Numbered from the stretch's first letter, positions 19,722 through 26,654 are shown. The stretch is 40,732 nt of DNA from Flavobacterium sp. (GCF_029242675.1 NZ_JAQWTM010000077.1:1-40732), one strand, 5' to 3'. A program made the numbers and translations. Notes: a model not told the origin generated them from the sequence alone.

Positions 19722-19825
19722 TTAGCCCAGATAGTAGTGGAAATCCTTTTTTAAAATTTGTCATACTGAGCTTGTCGAAGTACAAATTTTAAAAAAGATT
19801 GCAACGGATAGCTGGAAACAGCTCC
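19722..19825 (+). repeat. Dispersed palindromic repeat, copy A (between nrdB and nrdA)
   Basis: The 104-bp element reads TTAGCCC...AAATCC, then a 50-bp imperfect hairpin core (TTTTTTAAAATTTGT...ACAAATTTTAAAAAA with a CTTGTCGAAG-containing loop), then GATTG...AGCTCC. It is about 91% identical by eye to copy B in the opposite orientation (nine differences, only one in the core). The outer arms are shared with copies C and D. It fills most of the 198-bp nrdB-nrdA gap and could terminate, attenuate or stabilise the mRNA. Confidence 0.85.
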
Positions 19826-22691: not shown

Positions 22692-22795
22692 GGAGCTATT
22701 TCCTGCTTTACGTTCCAATCTTTTTTAAAATTTGCACTTCGACAAGCTCAGTATGACAAATTTTAAAAAAGGATTTCCACTGCAATCAGGGCTAA
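22692..22795 (-). repeat. Dispersed palindromic repeat, copy B (after nrdA)
   Basis: The 104-bp element reads GGAGCT...CAATC, hairpin core, GGATTTCC...GGGCTAA on the plus strand, which is the reverse complement of copy A with nine differences. The core contains CACTTCGACAAGCTCAGTATGAC, a short motif that I recall as occurring in many bacterial genomes. Its arms differ from copy C by only about three bases although the cores are unrelated. Confidence 0.85.
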
Positions 22796-24230: not shown

Positions 24231-24692
24231 TTATTTGATCGCATCCCATTTTTTATCGATCATTCCCAGGTATTTGGCTTCGTCTTTATTCCAGATATCA
24301 AGCGTATTGACTTGTGTTCCATTAAAATCGCCATTAAAAAATAAATACAATTTGTTATCTACAATTTTAAAAGTCTCAGGATTGATAGAGAATTTAGAAT
24401 CTTTTTCAGCTACACCCCAAGCGCAGTAACCGTTTACTTGTGGTACGTATTTTTTAGGGTTTGCTTTAAAAGCTTTTGCATTTTCTTTAGATGCAAAGTA
24501 ATAAGTAACCTTTTCGTTTTGTTCTGCAAATTTAGCGCTTCCTTTCATTGCTTTGTGGTCTTTTTGGTAAGAGACTACATCGTAACCACCTATTGCTAAA
24601 CCTGTTTTGTCAATAGCATCTATTTGTGCAAATACTCCGTTTGAAAATAAAGCAATAAATGCTACTAGTAATGTTGATTTTAAATTTTTCAT
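24231..24692 (-). CDS. Exported YHS domain protein
   Basis: A signal peptide (MKNLKSTLLVAFIALFSNGVFAQ) sends the 153-residue protein to the periplasm. The YHS domain follows: 'GLAIGGYDVVSY', 'GSAKFAEQNEKVTYYFASKENAKAF', 'PKKYVPQVNGYCAWGVA', with one cysteine in 'GYCAWG'. YHS domains are small metal-associated modules found with copper and mercury proteins; this secreted form has unknown activity. It is the last gene of the small ORF-AhpD-thioredoxin-OsmC run, 50 bp after OsmC, so a link with redox or metal stress is plausible from context. Confidence 0.85.
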   Translation of the reverse strand: MKNLKSTLLVAFIALFSNGVFAQIDAIDKTGLAIGGYDVVSYQKDHKAMKGSAKFAEQNEKVTYYFASKENAKAFKANPKKYVPQVNGYCAWGVAEKDSKFSINPETFKIVDNKLYLFFNGDFNGTQVNTLDIWNKDEAKYLGMIDKKWDAIK

Positions 24693-24742
24693 GTTTTTGA
24701 TTTTAATTATTTCTATGTGTAAGTTTGTATTTCTGTTGTATG

Positions 24743-25171
24743 TTAAGCTGTAACCGCTTCGGTAATTAGCTCTTGAGTATTTTCAATATTCCACTCGCCT
24801 TCAATCATGCGGTGTACGTAGCAAGCGTCGGCTTGTTTTAACAATTCTGCTTTTTGTTCAGCAGTTAGGTCACCTTCAATTTTAATTTTTGCAGTAACGT
24901 TTGAGGTCAGTTTTCCTCCTTCGCCACGTTTCACATTAAGTTCGAATTCGCCGTCTACTTCGCCTATCGTCCAGTTGTTTTTTCGAGCAATGTATCGCAC
25001 CGTTGCCACTTTGCACATTGCAATACTAGATAGGATTAAGTCCTCTGGTGAGAATCCTAGATCTGTTCCTTTGCTATTTGTAGGTTCGTCACCTACAATC
25101 GCATGTCTACCGTTTGTTATCAAAGAGTGGTATCCCGTAGGTAGGTTTTTGATGTTTATTTTCTTTCCCAT
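24743..25171 (-). CDS. OsmC family protein (peroxiredoxin-like)
   Basis: The 142-residue protein has the OsmC fold pattern: N-terminal beta strands ('GYHSLITNGRHAIVGDEP'), the peroxidatic-cysteine helix 'GFSPEDLILSSIAMCKVATVRYIA' (C53) and 'KADACYVHRMIEGEW' with the second cysteine near residue 122. OsmC/Ohr proteins reduce organic hydroperoxides with two cysteines and a thiol donor. This form is closer to the general OsmC/YhfA group than to classical Ohr, and its substrate is not certain. It is separated from the thioredoxin stop by only four bases, which suggests a functional pair in the cytoplasm. Confidence 0.88.
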   Translation of the reverse strand: MGKKINIKNLPTGYHSLITNGRHAIVGDEPTNSKGTDLGFSPEDLILSSIAMCKVATVRYIARKNNWTIGEVDGEFELNVKRGEGGKLTSNVTAKIKIEGDLTAEQKAELLKQADACYVHRMIEGEWNIENTQELITEAVTA

Positions 25172-25175
25172 TTTC

Positions 25176-25496
25176 TTAGCTTTTTATAATGTTTTGAAGG
25201 TGACTTGTCATTATAGACTTGCTTTGTACACCGTTTTGAGTACCTACAATTTCTCCATTTTTAAAGTAGAATAAAGCAGGAATGCTTCTTACTTTAAATT
25301 GAGCTGCAAGCTCTGGTTGTTCGTCAACATTGATTTTCGAAATAACCGCTTTACCATCAAAATCAGTTGCTAATGCTTCAAGAGCTGGATGCAAAGCCTT
25401 GCATGGTCCGCACCAGTCTGCGAAAAAGTCTACTAGTACGACATCGTTACTATTAATGGTTGCTTCAAAATTGTTTTTGTTTAAATGTTGTATCAT
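25176..25496 (-). CDS. Thioredoxin
   Basis: The 106-residue protein has the active site 'WCGPC' (C29 and C32), the following 'KALHPALEALA' helix, 'VDEQPELAAQFKVRSIPALFYF' with the cis-proline, and the final helix. No signal peptide is present, so it is cytoplasmic. It sits between an AhpD-like protein and an OsmC protein and is a likely electron donor for both. It may be a dedicated stress thioredoxin and not the housekeeping TrxA. Confidence 0.93.
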   Translation of the reverse strand: MIQHLNKNNFEATINSNDVVLVDFFADWCGPCKALHPALEALATDFDGKAVISKINVDEQPELAAQFKVRSIPALFYFKNGEIVGTQNGVQSKSIMTSHLQNIIKS

Positions 25497-25524
25497 TTTA
25501 ATGGTTTTTAGGATTAATTAAAAA

Positions 25525-26058
25525 TTATAGTGCTGGTGCAAGTGGAAAATCAATTGCAAAATCAGCTAGATTGTGAATGTAATTGCTAATGATTTTGTCA
25601 CCTACTACTACCACTACGTCAATCATGTTTACTTCAGTATAACCAGCTTCAAAAAATGCTGTTTTAGATGCTGCAGTTGCTTTTCCTCTGTTTTCAACCA
25701 CTGACGCTGTGAATTTTACTAAAGCGTCTAGTTTACTATCAAATGCAGCAGATCCTCTGCGTAATTCTAGTACTTGGTCATCCGTAAAGCCATTCATTTT
25801 TCCTATAACAGTATGAGCCGACTGGCAATAATTACAACCATTTATTTGGCTAGTGATCAAGTTTACTACTTCTCTTTCTTTAGCTTTTAAGCTACTTTTT
25901 CTGTTTTGAAGTGCTAAATAGTCACCTAAAGCCGTTTCGCTTTTTGCGAAATAAGCATATAAATTAGGAACAAAACCTAACCCTTTTTCTAGGTTATCAA
26001 AAATTGCTTGATTGTTTGATGATACTTCTTCTCTTGTTGGTACGTTGAAATTTGACAT
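25525..26058 (-). CDS. Carboxymuconolactone decarboxylase family, AhpD-like peroxidase-related protein
   Basis: The 177-residue protein has the AhpD-type catalytic motif 'CNYCQSAHTV' (C75, C78, H82) in the middle of a helical CMD fold and a second half ('VVVVGDKIISNYIHNLADFAIDFPLAPAL') typical of the uncharacterised peroxidase-related subgroup. Such proteins carry out thiol-disulfide exchange and support alkylhydroperoxide reduction. It begins 28 bp after the 52-aa ORF and ends 28 bp before thioredoxin in the same direction. The exact substrate is unknown. Confidence 0.88.
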   Translation of the reverse strand: MSNFNVPTREEVSSNNQAIFDNLEKGLGFVPNLYAYFAKSETALGDYLALQNRKSSLKAKEREVVNLITSQINGCNYCQSAHTVIGKMNGFTDDQVLELRRGSAAFDSKLDALVKFTASVVENRGKATAASKTAFFEAGYTEVNMIDVVVVVGDKIISNYIHNLADFAIDFPLAPAL

Positions 26059-26086
26059 AATTTTTTATTTTTTTGTGAATTAATAT

Positions 26087-26245
26087 TTATATAAATAAGT
26101 TGCTTTCGTTACAGTAGTAATCTGTGATTGCCATATTCTGACAAAAATCTGCTTGAGTTACTGCAATCAATTGCGGTGATTTTTTTGTTTGGTTCAGGTT
26201 AAAAGCGTTTTTAAATCCTGTAATAAGTGTTTGTATTGTTCTCAT
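26087..26245 (-). CDS. Small protein (52 aa) heading the thiol-stress operon
   Basis: This ORF is too short for the track. It begins MRTIQTLITGFKNAF, has a stretch 'PQLIAVTQADFCQN' and ends 'DYYCNESNLFI', with two cysteines. The frame is open from a good ATG to a TAA, starts about 26 bp after a -7-like box and ends 28 bp before the AhpD-like gene, the same spacing as between AhpD and thioredoxin. That makes a real gene or leader peptide likely. I recognise no family and no signal peptide. Confidence 0.6.
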   Translation of the reverse strand: MRTIQTLITGFKNAFNLNQTKKSPQLIAVTQADFCQNMAITDYYCNESNLFI

Positions 26246-26381: not shown

Positions 26382-26486
26382 GGAGCAGAAAGTGAAGTGC
26401 TTTCAAGAAAATCCGTCCCGCTTTACGTTGCAATCTTTTTATTCGCCGCGGCGAATAAAAAGGATTTCCACTGCAATCGGGGCTAA
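26382..26486 (-). repeat. Dispersed palindromic repeat, copy C
   Basis: Clear homology runs from TCCCGCTTTACG (26416) through a perfect 28-bp palindrome CTTTTTATTCGCCG/CGGCGAATAAAAAG to GGATTTCCACTGCAATCGGGGCTAA (26486). The outer GGAGC end is at 26382 but is separated by about 29 extra bases, so this copy has an insertion or rearranged left arm. The arms match copy B almost exactly while the core is unrelated. Confidence 0.75.
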
Positions 26487-26654
26487 GTGACGGCGTTTTG
26501 TCTTTGCCGATTACAATTCAGAATGGGAGTGAGTGCCAAGCACGAAGCAATCACACTCATTTGAAGGTATAAAGACTACTAGTTGTCTTTACATGATTTG
26601 ACTTTTTGACGATCGAAAAAAATATAACAATAGCAAATAATGTGAGCAACGGCT

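Follow-up and report, generated by a model that had tools for sequence, protein, structure and literature searches.

The window analysed here is a 40,732-nucleotide stretch of DNA from Flavobacterium sp. (GCF_029242675.1 NZ_JAQWTM010000077.1:1-40732). On its minus strand, five open reading frames run head to tail from 26245 to 24231 and encode a 52-aa protein (the mini-protein), an AhpD-like protein of the CMD family, a thioredoxin (Trx), an OsmC-like protein and an exported YHS-domain protein. Identities were assigned by Pfam and NCBIfam domain scans. An initial annotation had described five same-direction genes with small gaps at this position, and all five were recovered, with intergenic gaps of 28, 28, 4 and 50 nt. 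The features of the locus, in the order in which they would be transcribed, are:

27725-26904, minus strand, upstream of the 52-aa gene: AraC-family regulator, 273 aa (HTH_18, 8e-24)
26336-26299, minus strand: operator-like element GGGAAGAATGAACAACTCAACGGGAAATGCGACCTAAC, two direct GGGAA half-sites 21 bp apart
26278-26271, minus strand: promoter -7-like box CACCTTTG, ~25 nt 5' of the first start codon, of inferred Bacteroidota type
26245-26087, minus strand: 52-aa mini-protein gene, first gene of the unit (C35-x9-C45; D42, Y44)
26058-25525, minus strand: AhpD-like CMD-family protein, 177 aa (Pfam CMD, 3e-14; E63-x11-C75-x2-C78-x3-H82)
25496-25176, minus strand: thioredoxin with WCGPC (Pfam Thioredoxin, 3e-29; TIGR01068, 110 bits, cut-off 96.8)
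25171-24743, minus strand: OsmC-like protein, 142 aa, with C53 and C117 (Pfam OsmC, 3e-14)
24692-24231, minus strand: exported YHS-domain protein, 153 aa (NF041384, 113.8 bits, cut-off 70)
24196-24156, minus strand: hairpin 3' of the YHS gene (-21 kcal/mol; z -3.5 versus shuffles)
24070-23327, minus strand: 247-aa exported protein beyond the hairpin, no Pfam match; a syntenic neighbour in relatives

The tight gene order and the hairpin after the YHS gene are consistent with the single unit that the initial annotation had proposed. The hairpin probably marks the end of the transcription unit; a similar sequence was found after the OsmC gene in genome G019. Although the 247-aa exported protein occupies the same place, at 66-80% identity, in most loci of the clade, the stability of the hairpin suggests that its gene lies outside the unit. 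This protein possibly resembles a lipoprotein encoded between two AraC genes at another locus (L056). Neither a scan for T-run terminators nor one for sigma-70 promoters gave an excess over shuffled sequence. The region between the AraC gene and the mini-protein gene also contains an intergenic repeat (26400-26520), of which ~30 partial copies, some inverted, occur in the genome, for example at 22766-22795 and 19722-19751 in the window.

The encoded proteins and the mini-protein family

The three middle proteins had been described as redox-active with cysteine pairs, and these pairs proved invariant or nearly so. The closest solved structures to the CMD protein are AhpD proteins (PDB 6e8l, 8e-26), and among 31 orthologs its AhpD site is complete: E63, C75 and C78 are present in all, and H82 in 30, the last having one undetermined base. 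Trx carries WCGPC, and the OsmC-like cysteines, 64 residues apart, are kept in 62/62 (C53) and 61/62 (C117) orthologs. Ohr-type catalytic residues of the OsmC-like protein are poorly kept by comparison, with E43 in 20/62 and R22 in 29/62, the latter count being indicative as the Arg position differs between Ohr and OsmC. The protein also falls well below the equivalog cut-offs for Ohr (TIGR03561, 19.4 versus 88.85 bits) and OsmC (TIGR03562, 12.7 versus 85.8 bits). It is better called YhfA-like, after a subfamily of unknown activity (PMC5962072), and the organic-hydroperoxide peroxidase implied by the initial annotation is not supported.

The last protein of the unit has a signal-peptide-like N-terminus and a single Cys, within a GYC motif at the GxU/GxC position, that is present in all eight aligned orthologs. 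Mycobacterial AhpD is reduced by lipoylated proteins. The same holds for Ohr (PMC5962072), so the proposal that Trx donates electrons to its neighbours, though plausible, departs from the known chemistry of these families. The CMD, OsmC and YHS families have selenocysteine (Sec) members elsewhere (PMC13188914); all three proteins have Cys here, which led us to reject a selenoprotein assignment and supports redox-active cysteines only. Homologs of the CMD protein (55-61% identity) are also found on plasmids in Proteobacteria and Aureibacter. The Aureibacter homolog sits between a helix-turn-helix gene and Trx, and one Paraburkholderia homolog follows a DUF417 gene.

The 52-aa ORF has kept its length and first position in ~15 Flavobacterium genomes at 35-96% identity, and codon changes indicate purifying selection, strongest in the C-terminal half (pN 0.12 versus pS 0.44); it is thus not a chance ORF. 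It is a real gene, at the divergent edge of a small-protein family that lacks annotation. The operator search described below led to a 52-aa ORF in the equivalent position in a different genus (L177). With an alignment-based search (E <= 1e-3), members were detected in 63 of 331 Flavobacteriaceae genomes, about a fifth, and in 0 of ~285 genomes outside the family Flavobacteriaceae; in the class sample of 295 genomes, in which a few others were Flavobacteriaceae, only the window's own matched. Among 39 inspected loci, CMD was present in 36, the AraC gene in 36 and at least one of the two in 38, the usual order being AraC, mini-protein (45-58 aa), CMD and a cupredoxin-like exported protein (Pfam Cupredoxin_1).

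Family members share the motifs C-x9-C and D-[YF]-Y-C, and an alignment of 30 sequences shows no variation at C35, D42, Y44 or C45. A typical member reads SIFNLIEIFR...ISPKTHCEQKHHHDFYCDAEKPF, with histidines that are present in most relatives, whereas the window type (FCQNMAITDYYCNESNLFI) has kept the cysteines and lost the histidines. The protein at L218 (DYYCETNDMFI; CMD 75%) is intermediate between the two, and the length of the C-terminal tail varies among relatives. No Pfam or NCBIfam family scored above cut-off for window or canonical members. A sub-threshold match to MgrB (E 0.55) was rejected, and AlphaFold gave no confident fold for the family (pLDDT 59). In four relatives (L188, L195, L199, L200) the top-scoring operator-like site falls in the gap that separates the mini-protein gene from CMD, such that the two may be switched on separately. 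The association of the mini-protein with CMD is strong, and its context and conserved residues are the ground for the role proposed for it below.

The AraC regulator and its putative operator

What the initial annotation lacked, and what we consider the decisive element of the locus, is the AraC regulator (27725-26904) together with its operator (26336-26299). Orthologs of the regulator with 40-98% identity adjoin the same genes in relatives, and two cysteines within the motif FNR-x-FYC...EVxC are nearly universal among them (C85 in 54/54, C95 in 52/54), which makes the C85-x9-C95 pair a candidate redox or metal sensor.

In 17 aligned genomes, each a species, the region 5' of the 52-aa gene contains the pattern GGGAA-N16-GGGAA-N6-CCTAACT followed by a TTTG promoter box. 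CTTTG of this box is aligned in 16 of the 17, and TTTGTA or TTTGCAT occurs at the equivalent place in distant loci. Elements of the same form were recognised by eye before CMD in Cytophagales, Algoriphagus, Mesonia and other Flavobacterium operons, before Trx in Saprospiraceae and a Kapaibacterium, and before OsmC in other Saprospiraceae and genome G553. A weight matrix trained on the 17 clade sites only, with which whole loci were scored on both strands, placed its best site less than 400 bp upstream of, and on the same strand as, CMD, Trx, OsmC or the mini-protein gene in 45 of 69 other loci, which overlap partly with those inspected by eye. The operator and a Bacteroidota-type promoter thus precede the first gene, whichever it is: mini-protein, CMD, Trx or OsmC.

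A 23-base version of the pattern, allowing up to 3 mismatches, was searched against 396 Bacteroidota genomes. All five matches lie before AraC-linked CMD operons, with the AraC linkage of one, in the clade member G569, assigned by operon orthology as its AraC gene is outside the stretch; the reversed control pattern gave three scattered matches in the same genomes. The search brought to light only AraC-CMD operons and no wider regulon in the 396 genomes, and a BLAST search for a regulon with the whole 93-bp promoter gave convincing matches to copies of the operon only. Paired direct half-sites that are separated by two helical turns and immediately precede a promoter are an arrangement established for activators of the AraC family. 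From the linkage of gene and element, we infer that this AraC protein binds the GGGAA half-sites. At four loci (L046, L047, L048, L051), an FAD-dependent amine-oxidase-like gene that is absent from the window lies directly upstream of the AraC gene.

Modular variation across Bacteroidota

The neighbourhood, whose conservation the initial annotation had proposed to check, is conserved beyond close strains and across Flavobacterium species. The 52-aa protein was found in 13 of 400 Flavobacterium genomes searched, and all but one of these matches start such an operon, directly before CMD or Trx; the exception is a poor match with internal stops. Three of the Flavobacterium genomes lack CMD and some lack YHS. 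In otherwise close operons, the CMD slot holds either a >87% identical protein or one of ~55-56% identity (L111, L112, L113, L046), which suggests in-place gene replacement. In Flavobacterium sp. ALD4 (L049/L117), CMD is present twice, Trx occurs once intact and once as a 46-aa remnant, and a gene for an isochorismatase-like hydrolase has been inserted; the layout looks like the scar of duplication and replacement. These losses and replacements indicate that the unit is modular, with Trx-OsmC a nearly constant pair in the clade. In F. muglaense, two operons coexist in one genome (L114 and L171), one of the mini-protein/Trx/YHS type and one of the AraC-CMD-OsmC type, each with its own operator.

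For a wider survey, one degenerate-pattern scan based on an OsmC alignment was run against the genomes of 84,980 species. It gave 61 named loci, nearly all from Bacteroidota and biased towards close relatives. CMD or Trx lies within 1.5 kb of 43 of the 61 orthologous OsmC genes; for 47 OsmC paralogs of the same phylum, the number is zero. An AraC ortholog (at least 40% identity) lies within 3 kb on the same strand at 23 of the 61, others being further off or in another orientation. As some loci come from close relatives and lack independence, these counts should not be read as probabilities. The core of the module, AraC-CMD and/or Trx-OsmC, recurs across Bacteroidota with accessory genes swapped, and the window operon is a local version of this Bacteroidota-wide module.

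Swapped accessories include DoxX (L149, L150, L162), an isochorismatase-like hydrolase (L134, L166) and YHS (L141, L148). Beside AraC, CMD and OsmC, genome G553 (L108) encodes a DUF417 protein homologous to E. coli RclC (54% identity), as well as a PIG-L/BshB1-like deacetylase, an ABM-like protein and two copies of the operator. Its OsmC ortholog has an in-frame TAA and is probably a pseudogene or a sequencing error. At L135, in a metagenome-assembled genome labelled as an alphaproteobacterium (Thalassovita sp. NP30), the CMD (78%) and OsmC (67%) genes are Bacteroidota-like; they were probably mis-binned, or else transferred.

Proposed thiol-oxidant defence, its alternatives and known systems

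We favour, with moderate confidence, the view that the locus is a self-contained, regulator-linked operon for defence against thiol oxidants sensed by AraC. The tight gene order, the conserved operator, the proximity of CMD or Trx to orthologous OsmC genes, the complete AhpD motif, the OsmC-like cysteines, the AraC cysteine pair and the precedents of RclR-RclX and PfAR-1 make this the best reading. Points against it are the sensor half of the AraC protein, which does not resemble RclR, the poorly kept Ohr-type Arg/Glu of the OsmC-like protein and the low-confidence fold of the mini-protein. The AraC protein would be present constantly and become activated when C85-x9-C95 is oxidised or loses a metal. 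The trigger would be a powerful thiol oxidant, of which hypochlorous acid and hypothiocyanous acid are examples, or else some other electrophile that reacts with sulfur; the activated regulator would then switch on the operon. The AhpD-like enzyme, with its complete E/C/C/H site, may reduce the oxidant or the oxidant's thiol adducts, Trx and the two-Cys OsmC-like protein may re-reduce oxidised protein and small-molecule thiols, and the exported YHS protein would act in the periplasm. The mini-protein, with its two invariant cysteines, may serve as a small partner, redox-active or metal-binding, either to the AhpD-like enzyme or to its regulator. Overall, the operon would work like RclR-RclX of P. 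aeruginosa, with cargo that overlaps the allicin-tolerance clusters. Accessory genes of the module are likewise redox-related (DoxX, isochorismatase-like hydrolase, cupredoxin, RclC homolog), and as they vary, the substrate may vary too. Both the substrate and the role given here to the mini-protein are proposals drawn from gene content and conserved residues. No Flavobacteriaceae transcriptome naming the operon genes was found in the open literature.

General hydroperoxide defence, with AhpD and OsmC peroxidases fed by Trx, was the proposal of the initial annotation, and the complete AhpD motif, the OsmC cysteine pair and the adjacent Trx would suit it. We consider it improbable, however, as there is no AhpC partner and no adjoining OhrR, OxyR or PerR gene, the OsmC Arg/Glu are not conserved, the known donors of the AhpD and Ohr families are lipoylated proteins, and in RclR-RclX, functionally the nearest counterpart, the rclR mutant shows no sensitivity to H2O2 or t-BuOOH (PMC7950407). 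Equally unlikely is a thiosulfinate or organosulfur tolerance operon, a Bacteroidota relative of alt/PfAR-1 in which AhpD, Trx and OsmC undo S-thioallylation and AraC replaces the TetR regulator AltR. The AhpD-Trx-OsmC trio is common to PfAR-1 clones that confer allicin resistance (PMC7119367), but DsbA-like, OYE/alkene reductase, SDR, TetR/AltR, Gor and KefFC genes are missing from the operon and none was recognised by eye in the relatives' layouts; in addition, CMD-only and mini-protein-cupredoxin versions occur without OsmC and Trx, and no association of the carrier bacteria with Allium appears in the records.

A stress response centred on copper or another metal seems less probable still. 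In such an operon, copper would be handled by the Cys/His mini-protein and, in the typical version, by the cupredoxin, whose place YHS would have taken in this clade. The canonical mini-protein motif HCEQKHHHDFYCDAEKP does look metal-binding, a cupredoxin-like protein follows it, and copper takes part in E. coli HOCl defence through RclA (PMC7464077); the mini-proteins of the window clade have lost their histidines, though, and no copper efflux gene or copper regulator was seen nearby. The initial annotation had also called the 52-aa ORF a leader gene. Its first position, the short distance to the next gene and the lack of a known domain would fit a translated leader (attenuator) before otherwise unrelated stress genes, but we give this very little credence in view of the family-wide internal motif, the variable C-terminal tail and the purifying selection. 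The second operator-like site, before CMD in four relatives, also argues against a mere leader, and the ORF is better described as encoding a member of a small-protein family conserved in Flavobacteriaceae.

Returning to thiol-oxidant defence, we put forward a tentative and more speculative extension: that the mini-protein represents a novel type of partner dedicated to AhpD-like enzymes. It would be a ~50-aa, Flavobacteriaceae-specific redox or metal switch, supplying or anchoring the enzyme and the C-x9-C AraC protein or sensing on their behalf, and together with the operator it would define a Bacteroidota-wide oxidant regulon missed by annotation. Little of the oxidant sensing of Bacteroidota, a phylum prominent in water, soil and the gut, has been mapped. 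The locus offers a defined regulator with its operator, an AhpD-like target that is conserved and an unannotated small-protein family with invariant cysteines, along with an operator pattern that predicts members from DNA sequence alone. What the AraC-AhpD module senses outside Proteobacteria is now directly testable in natural, non-pathogenic carriers; F. frigidarium DSM 17623 is one natural carrier.

The initial annotation had suggested a distinct system, yet AhpD with Trx and OsmC is known from allicin clusters (PMC7119367), and an AraC regulator acting on an AhpD-like gene is known from RclR-RclX (PMC7950407). In P. aeruginosa, AraC-family RclR activates the AhpD-like gene rclX in response to HOCl/HOSCN; deletion of either rclR or rclX sensitises the bacterium to both, and H2O2, t-BuOOH, NEM and diamide reveal no such sensitivity in the rclR mutant (PMC7950407). 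As there, an AraC-family gene adjoins an AhpD-like CMD gene with CxxC, RclX being compared via the literature. The window AraC protein nevertheless resembles RclR only at HTH residues 190-271 (BLASTP), with no detectable homology in the sensor half; C21, the position of one member of the RclR Cys21/Cys89 pair, is a cysteine in just 16/54 orthologs, the conserved pair being C85/C95, and the operon adds the mini-protein, Trx, OsmC, YHS and its own operator. With a different cysteine pair and no detectable homology to RclR outside the DNA-binding domain, the operon is not an RclR system. E. coli rclR-rclABC likewise has an AraC regulator, and its RclC family (DUF417) is represented in one relative locus, that of G553, but RclA and RclB are missing, the cargo is CMD/OsmC, and the match of the window AraC to RclR is 21% over 82 aa in the DNA-binding part only.

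In the PfAR-1 allicin cluster, the allicin resistance conferred by a clone that also carries osmC depends on ahpD and trx, and ahpD::Tn insertions in PfAR-1 clones abolish nearly all of it (PMC7119367). Compared via the literature, PfAR-1/alt clusters (PMC7119367, PMC13178969) and the operon both have AhpD-like, Trx and OsmC-like genes under a dedicated regulator; here, though, this is AraC rather than TetR/AltR, a mini-protein and YHS are added, and with the other defining genes missing the operon is not an alt cluster. The mycobacterial AhpD-AhpC and Ohr-OhrR systems share the AhpD active-site quartet and an OsmC-family Cys pair 64 residues apart, but the operon has no AhpC or OhrR and the OsmC Arg/Glu are not conserved. 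In Burkholderia cenocepacia, CMD and OsmC-like genes are up 37-75-fold with HOCl (PMC7464077). The operon would resemble RclR-RclX in its working, and it shares three components with the allicin-tolerance clusters while belonging to neither: regulator-linked AhpD/OsmC thiol defence is of a known kind, and the small-protein family and the operator are new.
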